NCBI GenBank assembly: GCA_022823465.1
Contig: JAJEHX010000018.1
Coordinates: forward strand, 1 to 64,000
DNA from: Candidatus Latescibacterota bacterium
GTDB lineage: Bacteria; JAAXHH01
Length of the DNA stretch: 64,000 nucleotides
Direction: 5' to 3'
Position numbers and translations under genes: made by a program. Position 1 is the first letter of the stretch. Every line of letters begins with the position of its first letter. The notes under the pieces are model-generated. The model did no database searches. It saw only the letters and a list, made by a program, of their open reading frames with translations, and was not told where the DNA came from. Below are positions 14,095-53,648 of this stretch, one piece after another.

Positions 14095-14178
14095 GGGAGA
14101 GTCGAGCTTCCACAAGAGCAAGTCAAGTTTCCACAAGAGCGAGTCGAACTTCTACGAGAGCAAGTCGAGCTTCCATCG
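14095..14178. repeat. Four 21-bp degenerate tandem repeats between GH32 and the PLP enzyme gene
   Basis: Units at 14095-14115, 14116-14136, 14137-14157 and 14158-14178 with approximate consensus GAGCAAGTCGAGCTTCCACAA. A degraded fifth unit follows. With a period of seven codons, one forward frame reads as Ser/Phe/His/Lys-rich heptads and stops in TAA just before the next gene. No ribosome site supports translation, so I treat it as noncoding. Confidence 0.9.
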
Positions 14179-28196: not shown

Positions 28197-29336
28197 CTAC
28201 ACCTCGAACACCTTCTCCAGGCGCGTAAGGTTCTCGCATCCATCCTCGGTAACGACGACGTTGTCCTCGATCCGCACGCCGCCGCCGAGGTCGGGGTAGT
28301 AGAGGCCCGGCTCCACGGTCACGACGTGGCCCGCCTTCAGGACCTGCGATACCTTCGAAATACGGGGCGGTTCGTGGATCTCCAGGCCGAAGCCGTGGCC
28401 CGTGCCGTGGAAGAAGCCCTGCATGCGGCCGTTCTTCGCGCCCGTCTCGTAGCCCCGGCTTTCGAACAGCCGTTCCACTTCCCCGTGGATCTCCCGGCCG
28501 TCCACACCCGCTCGAACCCGTGAGAGCGCGACTTCCTGCCCTTCCAGCACCGTATCGTAGAGCCGCCGGAACGTGTCGGACACCGGACCTTTCGCCACGG
28601 TACGGGTGATGTCGGCGAAATAACCGGTTTTTGTGGACTTGGGAAACAGGTCGAAGATGATGGGTTCGCCGGCACGTAGCGGCCCGGAGCCGCCATTATG
28701 GGGATCGCAGCCCTGGACGCCTCCCGCGATGATTGTGTGCTGGGCGATGCAGTCCCGTTCCAGCAGGTAGACGTGGATCCTGTTCCGGATGTATTCAGAG
28801 GTAATCGGGCCTTCCGGACCGTGGAGCGTGCCGCACTTCACGGTGGCCTCCGCGAGTAAGGCGAAGGCCATGCGCAGGGCGGCTTCCGTGTGCCGGGACG
28901 CGTCCGAGATGGCGGCTACCTCGTCATCGGTCTTCACCGGCCGCCGGTCCCAGAAGGGATCCTCCTTCGGCACCACTTCGAAACCCCGGTCCCGAAGCCG
29001 GTCCGCGTAGCCCAGGGGAAAGCCGTTCGGCACCCGGACGCATTTCACCTCCCGGTCCCGGAGCAATTCGACCACGGCGTCCACGAGCCCCGGATCCGCG
29101 TTGCCGCTGCCCTTCGCACGGTCCGTGTAGTCCGTCAGCGAAACTACTTCGTCGGCCTTCGACTGGGCCCGGGCGCGATCGATCTCCAGGTCGCTCATCA
29201 TGATGGTCGTCCGGCCGTCTACCTGTAGGAAGGTGAAGGGGTCCGGCACGAACATGCCCGTGGCGTACAACATGTCGGCGTCGCGCTCGCTGTCCGCGAT
29301 GAGCAGGACGGCCTCGTTACCGGGTGAAGCGGTCAT
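28197..29336 (-). CDS. M24-family Xaa-Pro aminopeptidase-like metallopeptidase
   Basis: Pita-bread-fold peptidase, 379 residues, releasing N-terminal residues before proline or acting as a creatinase-like enzyme. The five metal ligands are visible: Asp in IIFDLFP, Asp in YFADITRT, His in FHGTGHGFGLEIHE, Glu in TVEPGLYYP and Glu in GVRIEDNVVV. The N-terminal creatinase-type domain spans about residues 1-130. It has no signal peptide. The upstream region contains a 20-bp perfect palindrome at 29429-29448 that could bind a regulator. Confidence 0.92.
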   Translation of the reverse strand: MTASPGNEAVLLIADSERDADMLYATGMFVPDPFTFLQVDGRTTIMMSDLEIDRARAQSKADEVVSLTDYTDRAKGSGNADPGLVDAVVELLRDREVKCVRVPNGFPLGYADRLRDRGFEVVPKEDPFWDRRPVKTDDEVAAISDASRHTEAALRMAFALLAEATVKCGTLHGPEGPITSEYIRNRIHVYLLERDCIAQHTIIAGGVQGCDPHNGGSGPLRAGEPIIFDLFPKSTKTGYFADITRTVAKGPVSDTFRRLYDTVLEGQEVALSRVRAGVDGREIHGEVERLFESRGYETGAKNGRMQGFFHGTGHGFGLEIHEPPRISKVSQVLKAGHVVTVEPGLYYPDLGGGVRIEDNVVVTEDGCENLTRLEKVFEV

Positions 29337-29428
29337 ACGGTTGCCTCTCGTTCTGGATCATTCAGTTCTGTATCTTTCCAGTTGAATATACCAACACTGT
29401 GAGCATGGTGATGTTCCACTACGTTTTG

Positions 29429-29448
29429 TATTGTACAATTGTACAATA
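29429..29448. promoter_or_regulatory. 20-bp perfect palindrome, candidate operator
   Basis: TATTGTACAATTGTACAATA is an exact 20-bp palindrome made of two TTGTACAA half-palindromes. It lies in an AT-rich spot about 93 bp upstream of the Xaa-Pro peptidase start. The geometry suits a dimeric repressor such as a GntR- or TetR-type protein, but no regulator gene is adjacent. Confidence 0.55.
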
Positions 29449-29479
29449 AATTGCCTGCTCGAATGGATTTGCAACTTCC

Positions 29480-29521
29480 CGACTTGCTCGACTGGCTTCA
29501 CGACCTGCTCGACAGGCCTCT
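29480..29521. repeat. 21-bp imperfect tandem repeat upstream of the peptidase gene
   Basis: 29480-29500 and 29501-29521 match at 17 of 21 positions (second begins CGACCTGCTCGACAGGCC). A further diverged copy precedes at about 29454. Confidence 0.75.
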
Positions 29522-29550
29522 CGCTAATTTTGACATCGGCCTCGCGGGAC

Positions 29551-30402
29551 TCAACCGTAATCGTAAAACCCCCGGCCGCTTTTGCGTCCGTTCATCCCGG
29601 CGGCGACCATCTGGCGCAACAGGGGCGGGGCGGCGTACCGATCGGTTCGGAAGGCGTCGTAGAGTACTTCCGCGATATAGAGCGTGGTGTCCAGGCCGAT
29701 GAAATCGAGCAGCTTGAGGGGGCCGAGAGGGTGACTGCAGCCCAGGACCATGCCCGCGTCGATGTCCTCCTTCGTGGCCACGCCCGATTCGACCAGGCGC
29801 ACCGCGTCCAGCAGATACGGGATGAGGAGATAGTTGACGATGAAACCGGGCGTGTCCTTGGCCTCGATCACCTGCTTGCCCAGCGATTCGCCGAACTGCC
29901 GGGCGGCTTCCACGGTCTTCTCGCTTGTCTGTAGGCCGATGACCATCTCGATGAGCCCCATCACGGGTACGGGATTGAAGAAATGAAGCCCCACGACCTG
30001 CTCTGGCCGGTTGGTAGCCGAAGCCAGTTCGGTGATGGAGATGGATGAGGTGTTGCTGGCCAATATGGCATCGGGCGGGGCGATACCGTCCAGGACCCGG
30101 AAGACTTCCTGCTTGGTCTCGAGATTCTCCGTGACCGCCTCGATCACCAGGTCGCACGCGGCGAGATCGTCAAATTCCGTCGTTCCCGTGATGCGTCCGA
30201 GTACGGCCGCCTTTTCGTCCGCCGTCATCTTTCCCTTTGAGACGTCCCGCGACAGGACGCCGTCGATACGGCCGATGCCTCCGCTTACCAACTCTTCGGA
30301 CGCCTCGCGGACGACCGTCCGGTACCCTGCCTGGGCGCACACCTGCGTGATGCCCGACCCCATCAATCCACATCCGATGACGCCAACGGTCTCGATGGCC
30401 AT
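29551..30402 (-). CDS. hbd: 3-hydroxybutyryl-CoA / 3-hydroxyacyl-CoA dehydrogenase
   Basis: NAD(P)-dependent 3-hydroxyacyl-CoA dehydrogenase, 283 residues, the single-function length. The Rossmann motif GVIGCGLMGSGITQVCAQAG is at the N-terminus. LHFFNPVPVM carries the catalytic His, and DTPGFIVNYLLIPY and HPLGPLKLLDFIGLD mark the C-terminal dimerisation domain. It acts in fatty-acid beta-oxidation or butyrate/PHB metabolism. A strong GGAGG ribosome site lies 7 nt before the ATG at 30402. No thiolase or enoyl-CoA hydratase is adjacent. Confidence 0.94.
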   Translation of the reverse strand: MAIETVGVIGCGLMGSGITQVCAQAGYRTVVREASEELVSGGIGRIDGVLSRDVSKGKMTADEKAAVLGRITGTTEFDDLAACDLVIEAVTENLETKQEVFRVLDGIAPPDAILASNTSSISITELASATNRPEQVVGLHFFNPVPVMGLIEMVIGLQTSEKTVEAARQFGESLGKQVIEAKDTPGFIVNYLLIPYLLDAVRLVESGVATKEDIDAGMVLGCSHPLGPLKLLDFIGLDTTLYIAEVLYDAFRTDRYAAPPLLRQMVAAGMNGRKSGRGFYDYG

Positions 30403-30525
30403 GCCGATCCTCCATATTCCTTTCAGTCAGGTTTCTCGTATTTCGCCTGGTATTTTCCTGTCATTATTTCCGGATCAAATTCACACGAATGGGCTCAGGA
30501 GCGGCCACTCTTAGTGCTTCACGCC

Positions 30526-32154
30526 CTACTTCAGCTCGGCCACGGCTTCCTTGAACAGCTTTCCGCGCTCCTCGAAATTGGTGAACATGTCGTAACTGGC
30601 GCAGCCGGGCGACAGTACCACCACGTCTCCAATTTGTGCCAGCCCCGCGCTTTGCCGGACGGCCTCATCGAGCGTACCGGCGCGGGTGATGACTGTTGTG
30701 TCGGTCGCCCCGCTCTTCCTGAGCGCGGCCTCGATCGCGGCGGCCGTCGCACCGATGAGGACAACGGCCCGGGCGCGCCGGACGATTTCCGACGCCATGC
30801 TGTCGAAGGACATCCCTTTATCGTACCCGCCCGCGATCAGCACGACCGGACGATCGAAGGCACGCAGCGCGGTGACCGTAGACGCCGGCGTGGTGCAGGC
30901 CGAATCGTTGTAATAGCCCACGCGGTCGATAACGGCTACCTCTTCCAGCCGGTGCTCCACGCCGCGGAACGCCTCGACCGTGGAGCGGATGACTGGCGCG
31001 GGGATCCCGCCCAGGCACGCGGCCGTCACGGCGGCGAGCAGGTTGGCCCGGTTGTGCGGACCCGGGAGCTGGAGGCTGTCCACGGGGCACACGACGCGTT
31101 CGTCCGCGGGAGCGCCTTCTCCTGCCGAGCCGCGTTCGACCGATGGATCGCCACCGTCCGCTGAATCGCGTTCACGAGGCGCATCGTGTTCACCCGCCGG
31201 ATCGCCGCCCAGCACGGGCTCGCCTTCTCCTACCGTATCACGTTCTCCCGAAGCGTCGCGAAAGACCACTTCTCCGTCATGCAGGTAACATCCGGTCTCG
31301 ACCGGACCCTCCATGCTGAACCACGCCACCCGCCCCGGACAAATAGGCACCCACGCGCGCAGCCGCTCATCATCGGCATTCAACACGGTCACGTCGCCCG
31401 ACGCCTGGTAACGCACGATGTGCTGCTTGGCCTGCTCGTAGGCGTCGAAGGTCCCATGCCAGTCCAGGTGATTGGGCGACAGGTTCGTCACCACGGCCAG
31501 CCCGGGGCTTCGCCGGATCCAGGCCAGCCGGTGGAGCTGGAAGCTGGACAGTTCCAATATCACGGGGCTGCCGTCGCCCGGCGCATCCGCGGCTTCGGTC
31601 ACCTCCACAGATTTGGACAGACTGTCGGCGCCCGGCGCTACCCTCGCTTCAGCCACTTCCCCGGCTTCGGCCGCCTCGCTCCGGCTGTCGAGTTCGTTGA
31701 GCACGGCCCGGCCGATGTTCCCGCCTACCAGCGTCTCCGGATCAATCGCCCGGTACAGTTCGCCGATGAGGCGGGTGGTCGTTGTCTTGCCGTTGCTGCC
31801 CGTGACGCCGATGATCGGCCGGCGGCGGGTCTCGAAGACCAGGTTCGTTTCGGTGGTCAGCGGAACGCCCCGGTCCCGCGCCAGACGGAGGAACGGACTG
31901 TCCTCCCGGACGGCGGGACCTACCACCACGAGGTCCGCGCCAGTGACGTCCTCCTCCCGGTGCTCCCCGAGCACGTAGCGGACCGGCCAGCGGGCGAGGG
32001 CGTCGATGGACTTCCGAAGCGCTTCAGCGGGCTTCAGGTCGGTGACGGTGACGTCCGCTCCCCGAGCGGCGAAATACCGCGCCGAAGCGACCCCGCCGGA
32101 GAACACGCCGAGGCCCAGCACAGTAACCCGTTTGCCGGTTAAATCCCTTGACAC
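30526..32154 (-). CDS. murD: UDP-N-acetylmuramoylalanine--D-glutamate ligase with two low-complexity inserts
   Basis: Mur ligase adding D-Glu to UDP-MurNAc-L-Ala in peptidoglycan synthesis. The GTG at 32154 (VSRDLTGKRVTVLG) is the preferred start because it fits the family N-terminus; an in-frame TTG at 32226 would overlap the upstream gene. Features: VLGLGVFSGGVASARYF, ATP loop GVTGSNGKTTTTRLI, GGNIGRAVL, SPNHLDWHG and the C-terminal HRLEEV and NDSACTTPAST motifs. The protein is about 542 residues against roughly 440 normally. The excess is two inserts: one before ILELSSFQL and one between the central and C-terminal domains, the latter a 9 x 6-residue repeat. Core motifs are intact, so it is probably functional. 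Confidence 0.94.
   Translation of the reverse strand: MSRDLTGKRVTVLGLGVFSGGVASARYFAARGADVTVTDLKPAEALRKSIDALARWPVRYVLGEHREEDVTGADLVVVGPAVREDSPFLRLARDRGVPLTTETNLVFETRRRPIIGVTGSNGKTTTTRLIGELYRAIDPETLVGGNIGRAVLNELDSRSEAAEAGEVAEARVAPGADSLSKSVEVTEAADAPGDGSPVILELSSFQLHRLAWIRRSPGLAVVTNLSPNHLDWHGTFDAYEQAKQHIVRYQASGDVTVLNADDERLRAWVPICPGRVAWFSMEGPVETGCYLHDGEVVFRDASGERDTVGEGEPVLGGDPAGEHDAPRERDSADGGDPSVERGSAGEGAPADERVVCPVDSLQLPGPHNRANLLAAVTAACLGGIPAPVIRSTVEAFRGVEHRLEEVAVIDRVGYYNDSACTTPASTVTALRAFDRPVVLIAGGYDKGMSFDSMASEIVRRARAVVLIGATAAAIEAALRKSGATDTTVITRAGTLDEAVRQSAGLAQIGDVVVLSPGCASYDMFTNFEERGKLFKEAVAELK
31096..31257. repeat. Nine 18-bp tandem repeats encoding a hexapeptide array within murD
   Basis: Nine consecutive 18-bp units with no length variation, in register with the murD codons. 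On the coding (minus) strand each gives six residues: DASGER, DTVGEG, EPVLGG, DPAGEH, DAPRER, DSADGG, DPSVER, GSAGEG, APADER. The rough consensus is Asp-x-x-x-Glu-Arg/Gly. Nucleotide divergence between units is substantial, so the array is old or rapidly diverging. Confidence 0.95.
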
Positions 32155-32197
32155 ACGAAGCCCGCCCGGTTTAATATACGGCGTTGATTCTAAGGAT

Positions 32198-32947
32198 TCA
32201 TTCCGCGAAGTCCAGTAGTTCGTCAAGCGCCGTCAGAAAGGCGTTGGTTTCCGGCGCTTCCACGGTTTCAGGACCGCGCATCAACTGCACCAGGTCTTCG
32301 ATCGTATCGACGTCCAGCAGGCGGTACCCGTCGAGCACCTCGTGGGTGATTCGACGCTTCCGAAGCAGGGCGACGGTCTCCTCGAGTTCCGATCCCGAAC
32401 TCCAGCGCGATATATCGAATATTCGGTGCGGCCTGCGCATGCCGATAAGATTGTACGCGCCGTCCTGGGCCGGGACAAGCACAATATCATGGGATGAGAG
32501 GGACGCGCGGACCCGGTCGATGACCGTTTCGTCCAGGTGGGGCATATCGCTCCCCGAGATCAGTACGTACGCGTATCGTCCGAGCAGCGCCTCGAAGATC
32601 CCGAGCATGATCTCGCCCATGTTCGCGCCGGATACGAAGTGGTACGGTATATCCGGCCCGGTAATCGAGCGAAAGCCCTCCGCGCATTCGGGTTGCGACG
32701 CGGCCAGCCAGAGGTCGTAATCCCGTTCCCGGTGAGCCGCGAAACGGTCCACCAGGAACGCGCGGTACATGCGGGCCGCCAGGCGGAAGGCTTCGTCCTC
32801 GCCGATAACCCGGCCTGAAGCGTCCGGGACGTCCTTGAGGCCGCGATAGCCGTTTTCCACGGTACCTTTGACAAGCCTGGTTTTTACGCTGCGGGGTTCC
32901 GGGTACTTTGCCGGCAGGACGAGTGCGGTAGGCGGGTACGGAGTCAT
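32198..32947 (-). CDS. DUF2064 / TIGR04282-type glycosyltransferase-like protein
   Basis: Nucleotidyl/glycosyl-transferase fold of the DUF2064 family, about 249 residues. Family features seen: the N-terminal AKYPEPRSVKTRL segment, SGSDMPHLDETVIDR and the PAQDGAYNLIGM motif. Members are annotated as glycosyltransferase-like, some linked to arsenosugar biosynthesis; no arsenic gene is present here. The start ATG at 32947 is chosen over GTG 32962, neither having a good ribosome site. It ends 43 bp before the preferred murD start and probably belongs to the same transcript. Confidence 0.8.
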   Translation of the reverse strand: MTPYPPTALVLPAKYPEPRSVKTRLVKGTVENGYRGLKDVPDASGRVIGEDEAFRLAARMYRAFLVDRFAAHRERDYDLWLAASQPECAEGFRSITGPDIPYHFVSGANMGEIMLGIFEALLGRYAYVLISGSDMPHLDETVIDRVRASLSSHDIVLVPAQDGAYNLIGMRRPHRIFDISRWSSGSELEETVALLRKRRITHEVLDGYRLLDVDTIEDLVQLMRGPETVEAPETNAFLTALDELLDFAE

Positions 32948-33007
32948 TGGCCGGAAAGGCACGGATTGGCGCGATGGGGATCGCGTAACGATGACGCCAC
33001 GGCATCC

Positions 33008-42662: not shown

Positions 42663-42787
42663 ATGGCAAAATTGACGATAAACGAGACTGAATCTCGAAA
42701 CGGATTTAGGTGGCCGGAGAAACTGGAGCAGCTGGAGATACCGGAGCAGCCGTCAAGGCCAGAGAAGATCCAACGGAATCACATTCC

Positions 42788-44218: not shown

Positions 44219-44998
44219 ATGAATCTGCTCCTCGTCGGTGGTTCCGGCCTTGTCGGGACGGCCGTCACACCCTACCTGCGGAAACACCATAACCTGCGCG
44301 TGCTGGACCTCAAATCCCCTGAACACGACCTGGAGTATGTCGAAGGATCCATCGCCGATCCCGACACGGTGCGCCGGGCCCTCGACGGCATGGACGGGTT
44401 CATCACAATGGTCATGAAGGGTGGCCAGGGCGGCCATGACCGGCATCACACCTTGGAACAGGTGATCGACAACTATACCGTCAACTGCCTGGGCCACCAT
44501 ATACTGCTGTATACCGCCGCTGAAATGGGCATCATGCGCGGGATCTACACCGGCACCATGAGCGTCCACAACCGGCACCGGACCTGGTATCCTTCCGAGG
44601 AGGAGGTGCCCCTGGACGGTCCCAACGTCTACGGGTTGACTAAGGGACTCACGGAGGAGATCTGCCGGTATTTTGCCCGTGAGTACGACATGAGCCTGCT
44701 CGTCTACCGGATCACGGGACCCTGCAACAGAGCCATGTTCATCGACCGGATCAAGCACCCGCCCGGCGGGCCAAAACTCTATTACACCGACGAGGAAGAC
44801 ATGGCCGAGGCCTACCTGGCAGGGCTGCGTTTCCTAGACCAGGGCGGCAGCGGCCAGGGCGGCAGCGTTCAGGCCGGCCGAGGCCGCTGCGAGGTGTTCT
44901 TCATCTCCGGGGACGAGAAGCGCGAAGAAATGAACATGGCCAGGGCCCGCGAGCTTTTGGACTGGGAGCCGGTAGCGCGGAAGAAGCTGGGGATCTGA
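44219..44998 (+). CDS. NAD-dependent epimerase/dehydratase (extended SDR)
   Basis: Short-chain dehydrogenase-like protein of 259 residues. Cofactor motif LLVGGSGLVGTAV at the N-terminus, substrate-site Tyr-x-x-x-Lys in NVYGLTKGLTEEI. It is short for an extended SDR and the active-site Ser appears in YTGTMSVHN. Near the C-terminus a 3 x 15-bp tandem repeat inserts QGGSG-QGGSV-QAGRG into an otherwise plain loop. The substrate is unknown, probably a nucleotide sugar or uronate. It lies 33 bp after cysS. Confidence 0.82.
   Translation: MNLLLVGGSGLVGTAVTPYLRKHHNLRVLDLKSPEHDLEYVEGSIADPDTVRRALDGMDGFITMVMKGGQGGHDRHHTLEQVIDNYTVNCLGHHILLYTAAEMGIMRGIYTGTMSVHNRHRTWYPSEEEVPLDGPNVYGLTKGLTEEICRYFAREYDMSLLVYRITGPCNRAMFIDRIKHPPGGPKLYYTDEEDMAEAYLAGLRFLDQGGSGQGGSVQAGRGRCEVFFISGDEKREEMNMARARELLDWEPVARKKLGI
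44840..44884. repeat. Three 15-bp in-frame tandem repeats in the SDR gene
   Basis: 44840-44854, 44855-44869 and 44870-44884. The first two differ by two bases. Encodes a Gly/Gln/Ser-rich pentapeptide triplet. Confidence 0.9.
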
Positions 44999-52226: not shown

Positions 52227-53648
52227 TCAACTGTCTTTTCCGGATCCTTCACCCGATTCTTCTCCCGATCCTTCGTTTCGCTTGTTCCGCATCCACAGCC
52301 AGTACGCCGGGATGCCCAACGAGGTGATGGTCAGCCCGATCAGGGTATTCCCGGGGTCGCTGATGACGATGGACACGAAGAAGATCACACCGATGAGCAC
52401 GAAGATCGCGGGTGTGACGGGATACCCGAGGGTGCGGTAGGGCCGTGGCACGTCGGGACGGGTGCGCCGGAAGATGAACACGCTGAAGGTAGTTGTGATG
52501 TAGAAAAGCCAGAGGGAGCCGGTCCGCGCCGCAATGATGGCGCCCCAGTCGCCGAGGAACACGATATTGAGGATGCCCACAACGGCCAGGAACACGACGG
52601 CGTTGGCCGGCGTACGGTAGCGCGGGTGGACGCGCGCGACCCATGAGAAGAACATCTTCTCGCGGGCCATGGCGAAGAAGACGCGCGGTCCGGTCAGCAT
52701 GCCGGCGTTCACGGTGCCGAAGGTGGAGATCATGGCGGTCGCGGCGATGAAACCCGCTCCGATCGGTCCGACGAGCGATTGCATGGTCTCGGATGCGACG
52801 CGCTCGCTCTGGGCGACGCCCGTGTTGGAGAGCACCAGCAGGTAGGCGCTGTTCACGAGCAGGTAGACGACGGTGGTGATGGCGAGACCCAGTATGATGG
52901 ACAGGGGCACCCAGCGTCTCGGATTCTTGATCTCTTCCGCCACGTAGGTCGACCCGTCCCACCCGTCGTAGGCGCCGAAGGACGCCATCATGCCGAGGCT
53001 GACCATGCTGAGAAACCCGATCGTGAGGGTGGAATCGGAAGGCCAGACCGGTTGGAAATTACTCGTGTCGGGGGTGATGCCGAAGGCCAGGGCGACCATG
53101 AGGAGCAACCCGCCCACCTTGAGGAAGGAAGACAGGTTCTGGACGAGACCGCCGAACCGCACGCCCAGGTAATTGATGAAGGCCAGGATGATCAGGGCGA
53201 TTATCGCCACGCCCCGCATGGCCCAGTCCGGGTATGGACTGAACTGGCTGACGAAATAACCCAGGTAGGTGGAGAATACGATGGATATGGCCGCCAGGTC
53301 GCAGGGACGTATGACCAGGAGCGAGGTCCACCCGAAGAGAAAACTCCACAGTCGCCCGTAGGCTTCCCTCAGGAATACGTACACCCCGCCTGAACGCGGC
53401 ATGAGGCCGCCCAGTTCGGCGAATGTCACCGCGCCGCAGAAGGCCATGAAGGCGCAGATGACCCAGACCAGGAGGTTCCAGCCGGAAGTACCCACGTAAC
53501 CGGCCACGATGGCGGGACCCGCGAAGATGCCGGAACCGATGATCCCACCGATAATCACGGTCGTCGCCGTGACCGGTCCCAGGTCCCGCTTGAGCTCGGT
53601 TTCCTCACCGAATGAATCGGATCGGGCGTCTTCCCGCACGTCGCTCAT
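52227..53648 (-). CDS. APC-superfamily amino acid permease
   Basis: Integral membrane transporter of 473 residues with about 12 helices, LAT/SLC7-like. The first helix carries the unwound GGIIGSGIFAGPA motif used for amino-acid carboxylate binding. FAELGGLMPRSGGVYVFLREAYG in the helix 2-3 region and ASFGAYDGWDGSTYVAEEIKNPRR at helix 6 are typical. The last 15 residues are a Gly/Ser/Glu repeat from a 3 x 12-bp array. Predicted substrate is an amino acid, exchanged or imported. No neighbour points to a particular one. Confidence 0.9.
   Translation of the reverse strand: MSDVREDARSDSFGEETELKRDLGPVTATTVIIGGIIGSGIFAGPAIVAGYVGTSGWNLLVWVICAFMAFCGAVTFAELGGLMPRSGGVYVFLREAYGRLWSFLFGWTSLLVIRPCDLAAISIVFSTYLGYFVSQFSPYPDWAMRGVAIIALIILAFINYLGVRFGGLVQNLSSFLKVGGLLLMVALAFGITPDTSNFQPVWPSDSTLTIGFLSMVSLGMMASFGAYDGWDGSTYVAEEIKNPRRWVPLSIILGLAITTVVYLLVNSAYLLVLSNTGVAQSERVASETMQSLVGPIGAGFIAATAMISTFGTVNAGMLTGPRVFFAMAREKMFFSWVARVHPRYRTPANAVVFLAVVGILNIVFLGDWGAIIAARTGSLWLFYITTTFSVFIFRRTRPDVPRPYRTLGYPVTPAIFVLIGVIFFVSIVISDPGNTLIGLTITSLGIPAYWLWMRNKRNEGSGEESGEGSGKDS
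52240..52275. repeat. Three 12-bp tandem repeats at the permease 3' end
   Basis: 52240-52251, 52252-52263 and 52264-52275 (CCGGATCCTTCA-like). In frame, extending the C-terminus with Gly-Ser-Gly-Glu units. Confidence 0.85.

Follow-up and report, generated by a model that had tools for sequence, protein, structure and literature searches.

The murD locus and its hexapeptide array

The window analyzed here, 64,000 nucleotides at the start of contig JAJEHX010000018.1 of a Candidatus Latescibacterota genome (G000), encodes on its minus strand MurD, the UDP-N-acetylmuramoyl-L-alanine--D-glutamate ligase, in an open reading frame (30526..32226) of 566 residues when read from the listed TTG. In a profile search the product matched TIGR01087 (E=7e-112, 374.7 bits vs. 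a cut-off of 211.95), and it contains matches to the Pfam families MurD-like_N, Mur_ligase_M and Mur_ligase_C. The listed TTG (32226) is probably too early and the GTG at 32154 (codon 25) the likelier start, because both the alignment with outgroup proteins and the confidence of the AlphaFold model begin at that point (pLDDT is below 50 at residues 1-24). An earlier note on this DNA, made from the letters and reading frames, had considered the MurD motifs to be intact, and they are: the P-loop GVTGSNGKTTTT (31774..31809, minus strand) is invariant at almost every position in both of our alignments (A1 and A2), and the GxxGKTTT motif and the Mur-ligase Glu, His and Lys are all present, with G143, G146, K147, T149-T151, N170, E225, H253, and K267 invariant across alignment A2. 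The enzyme is presumably active, because the genome, at 98% complete, holds no other full-length MurD (four further matches are partial, with 33-39% identity). In the part of the window from 28197 to 32962, as judged from its reading frames, murD is flanked by putative genes for a 3-hydroxyacyl-CoA dehydrogenase-like protein and a DUF2064-type protein and lies outside any evident mur/fts cluster.

Residues 324-377 of MurD are encoded by an array of nine hexapeptide (18-bp) units (31096..31257, minus strand), identified by its periodicity, a shuffle test and comparison between species. From 31257 downward, units 1-5 read DASGER DTVGEG EPVLGG DPAGEH DAPRER and units 6-9, ending at 31096, read DSADGG DPSVER GSAGEG APADER, and the coordinates of the nine in-frame, indel-free units that had been noted earlier proved exact. 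The register that describes the units as R/G-D-x-x-x-E begins at 31260; aspartate occupies unit position 2 in six of the nine units and glutamate position 6 in seven, a pattern that recurs in congeners. Mean pairwise identity between the units is 57%, vs. 34.5% ± 1.6% in codon shuffles, a similarity that none of 20,000 shuffles reached, and the array is by this measure an intragenic tandem repeat, its head-to-tail units remaining in frame and exceeding chance. At the DNA level self-identity reaches 0.55 for lags of 18 and 36, all other lags giving about 0.20-0.35. Tandem Repeats Finder called just 2.3 copies, because the units are degenerate and have diverged from one another.

Variation of the MurD loops between species and in the predicted fold

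Complete MurD sequences were obtained from 11 species of the genus (the window genome and ten congeners, one genome per species), and four MurDs from outside the genus, representing two genera of the same family and two other families of the order, served as outgroups. The segment from NADD to LPGxHN is 52 residues long in all four outgroups; in the genus it exceeds this length by 0, 0, 12, 17, 24 (five species), 30, and 48 residues, a multiple of six in every species except G010 (+17). These lengths correspond to 1, 1, 3, about 4, 5 (five species), 6, and 9 units, and the array thus varies between species. Each outgroup MurD has a single hexapeptide at this position (RDEANE, RDGMRE, RMHGLE, and RHEGRE), apparently the seed from which the array grew. 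In a tree of core codons, from which the inserts were left out, the window species with its nine units and G009 with three are sisters (support 100/100). The two species with one unit, G003 and G006, branch together among species with 4-6 units, although support for this placement (58/73) and for the deep branches is weak, and they may either have lost the array or have kept the ancestral one-unit state.

Alignment with the closest relatives was the check that the earlier note had proposed for its reading of the array as a repeat expansion, and it supports that reading: the site is common to the relatives, and neither the number of units (1-6 in the ten congeners vs. 9) nor their sequence is conserved. 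The same insert with conserved units in close relatives, which the earlier note took as the sign of an old functional domain, is not what we found, the sister species having three units vs. nine. The range among the congeners, the short array of the sister species and the single native hexapeptide of the outgroups together indicate that a turn was expanded in tandem within this lineage, and speak against an old domain.

Two other loops of MurD are also variable. Insert 1, an Ala/Glu/Ser-rich low-complexity loop before SPVILELSSFQL (31570..31686, minus strand; approximately residues 181-219), lies in a segment of 51 residues in the window MurD vs. 17 in the outgroups, and the alignment with relatives bears out the earlier mention of a second low-complexity insert ahead of ILELSSFQL. 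This segment (segment 1, VGGNIG to LELSSFQL) is 17-19 residues long in all 80 MurD rows from outside the genus (one protein is included twice, as L017 and L078) and 15-78 residues long within it; segment 2 exceeds 62 residues in just five non-genus MurDs. In G005, segment 1 holds a 7-residue repeat of its own (ESAEATV) unrelated to the hexapeptide. The third site, in the C-terminal domain (30688..30717, minus strand), was recognized by alignment and is unexpanded in the window MurD; an insert is present there in G001, G002, G003, G008, and G010, with segment 3 measuring 82-111 residues in expanded congeners vs. 66-68 in unexpanded species.

The AlphaFold model, built on a 15-sequence alignment, has a core with pLDDT mostly of 80-94 and two long stretches of low confidence, 183-217 and 328-372, that coincide exactly with the inserts, and pLDDT drops below 50 at residues 183-217 (insert 1) and at 328-360 and 362-372 (array), which we take as disorder. 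The best fold matches of the model in the PDB are MurD structures (TMt up to 0.87), consistent with the three-domain MurD fold. In this prediction the array forms a surface-type disordered loop on an intact MurD fold, joining the strands 319-324 and 375-381; in the light of known MurD structures, we take this loop to be a hairpin of the central domain, not an interdomain linker. The position originally given for the array, between the central and C-terminal domains, therefore agrees with the Pfam matches, the array falling after M (141-306) and before C (425-540), but not with the central-domain hairpin of the model. Solved MurD structures from E. coli (1uag/2jfg), S. agalactiae (3lk7), and P. 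aeruginosa (8dp2) share the core fold and catalytic motifs, and differ from the window MurD in its two larger loops (+34 and +48 residues); 3lk7 runs almost straight from the strand before the array loop to the strand after it. Relative to the outgroups these two gains add up to 82 residues, fewer than the approximately 100 of the first estimate.

Loop expansions across the genus

The more notable result is that loop expansions are common across the housekeeping enzymes of the genus, the MurD array being one case of a genus-wide excess. Orthologs at least 70% identical were compared between 1.16 Mb of window-genome sequence and a 645-kb contig of G001, with protein ends excluded (median identity 86.5%; window GC 0.62), and one pair of metagenome genomes, G059 and G060, was taken as the control (median identity 87.9%; GC 0.61). 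Internal indels of at least 10 residues were found in 29 of 206 orthologs (14%) vs. 2 of 116 (1.7%) in the control (Fisher p=1.2e-4), and indels of at least 15 residues in 25/206 vs. 0/116 (Fisher p=1.2e-5). Two further pairs within the genus each had internal indels in 11% of orthologs. A, G, D, S, P, and T are abundant among the inserted residues, and tandem periodicity at p<0.05 was detected in 37 of 48 insert sites where 2-3 were expected (by codon shuffles that included the lag search), with best lags varying from 9 to 48 bp. Among the carriers are QueG, MnmA, UvrA, PyrD, RsmD, transketolase, ThiL, HpnC, an HpnD-like protein and a large helicase; the MnmA of G001, for instance, has about 40 extra residues where order-level outgroups are contiguous.

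In the comparison of G000 with G001 most of the long inserts sit in G001, and the insert load therefore differs between congeners. The window itself has further short in-frame tandem repeats in frames conserved among congeners, at 14100-14175 (21 bp), 42716-42750 (18 bp), 44839-44878 (15 bp), and 52235-52274 (12 bp).

Origin of the array and known parallels

We consider it likely that a native hexapeptide was duplicated in frame to give the array, a coding minisatellite tolerated in a disordered loop as part of a genus-wide trait. A single native hexapeptide at the tip of a β-hairpin in the central domain would have undergone repeated in-frame duplication, and sometimes loss. The anatomy of the array leads us to infer slippage or unequal exchange between 18-bp units as the mutational route, by which the loop would change in length by whole hexapeptides. 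Products that keep the frame would project from the catalytic core as a disordered loop and be tolerated under weak purifying selection, and the array would need no dedicated function. The same route may have produced insert 1, and also insert 3 in relatives, at two other loops from unrelated units.

A possible cause behind this explanation, and not an alternative to its anatomy, is that a missing repair function, with SbcCD as the candidate, raises the rate of slippage or lowers the removal of repeats, so that the MurD array is a by-product. None of the 11 genus genomes searched had a match to SbcD (TIGR00619) above the cut-off, whereas SbcD was found in the order-level outgroups G014 and G015, and the excess of inserts spans many gene classes. 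However, the absence of SbcD represents one evolutionary event, assessed over the 11 genus genomes and these two outgroups, and SbcD was likewise not found in one of 14 named control genomes. Moreover MutS1, RecJ, and XseA are present in the genus, and the array units, at 57% identity, are old and do not demonstrate a high current rate of slippage. The association of SbcD absence with loop inserts is a correlation that we treat as a lead only, and we doubt, on balance, that repair loss accounts for the array. Loss of mismatch repair was rejected as a cause, since MutS1 was found in the ten genus genomes searched (as a partial match in G004), and so was loss of RecJ or ExoVII, as RecJ and the ExoVII large subunit were found in all 11. 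We hold only tentatively the broader idea that the housekeeping proteome of this Latescibacterota genus has been pervasively remodelled by in-frame loop minisatellites, permitted by the loss of a repeat-processing (SbcCD-like) nuclease; if true, the genus would be a bacterial counterpart of the low-complexity-rich proteomes of protists.

It is unlikely, in our judgment, that the inserts are functional, as disordered D/E/G/R-rich linkers that aid solubility, serve regulation or recruit MurD into a cell-wall synthesis complex. An array is present in nine of the 11 species with complete MurD, the aspartate and glutamate recur at their unit positions in congeners also, and array dN/dS is below one (about 0.27-0.50 vs. 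0.15-0.20 for the core, from small counts in five pairs of species with 24-31 array codons in common), which suggests that constraint on the array is relaxed, not absent. Most units retain these two residues, a hint that composition is under some constraint, which leaves room for a role at that level. Against a linker function, however, G003, G006 and all outgroups make do with just one unit, unit number and sequence are not conserved, and similar inserts with unrelated units occur in functionally unrelated enzymes.

Insertion of a mobile or dispersed in-frame element, of the type of the Rickettsia palindromic elements, into MurD and other genes would account for inserts at different sites in several genes, but is highly improbable given that the array has no second copy elsewhere in the window genome (the best other match being 20 bp, E=0.08), that insert sequences and periods vary from gene to gene, and that the MurD array appears to be seeded by a native hexapeptide. 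Equally improbable is an artefact of assembly or binning: metagenome assemblies are among the genus genomes and repeats are reported to be able to mislead assemblers (PMC6868369), yet 11 genomes, each assembled separately, have open in-frame arrays with lineage-consistent sequences at matching sites. The array is, besides, only 162 bp long and could be spanned by ordinary reads.

Discussion of bacterial coding tandem repeats has centred mostly on surface and effector proteins. Across this genus they enlarge compact essential enzymes. The MurDs of closely related species, with anything from 1 to 9 units at one position, form a natural series in which the tolerance of an essential enzyme for disordered sequence could be measured. 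The series also bears on how a loop arises from one turn, and the genus on whether the pace of loop growth is set by a repair gene; annotators and modellers should be aware that length variation in the genus is real.

Intragenic tandem repeats are already known, and the loop expansions of MurD and other housekeeping enzymes are a variant of that kind. Legionella pneumophila has such repeats at 26 genomic loci, secretion-system genes and one heat-shock protein among them, and shares with the genus a unit length divisible by three, a copy number that varies between relatives and a frame that is kept (PMC2639597). Unlike those of Legionella, the repeats of the genus lie in loops of many housekeeping enzymes and have old, diverged units, and the comparison is between species, not strains. 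Low-complexity regions of prokaryotes resemble the inserts in being A/G/P/S/T/D-rich inserted segments for which an origin by slippage has been proposed, but the survey that described them chose conserved, functional regions (PMC6821194), whereas the genus inserts are lineage-specific and variable. The low-complexity-rich proteins of Plasmodium resemble the inserts in composition and proposed origin, a likeness and not a relation (PMC3197514). The literature searched for repeats in MurD, for in-frame duplications and for palindromic elements yielded nothing that matches the MurD array. Association with sponges is known for Latescibacterota at the level of the phylum (PMC12993501), and the words tandem, low complexity, and insertion are all absent from the one paper dedicated to sponge Latescibacterota.

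A minor observation concerns MutS1, whose profile match ends near 784-789 in G001, G002, G003, G005, G006, and G008. The frame is longer in five of these six (936-979 residues vs. 910 in G000), and in G005 a C-terminal piece (794-840) resumes downstream, suggesting that MutS itself may carry a repeat-type insert.
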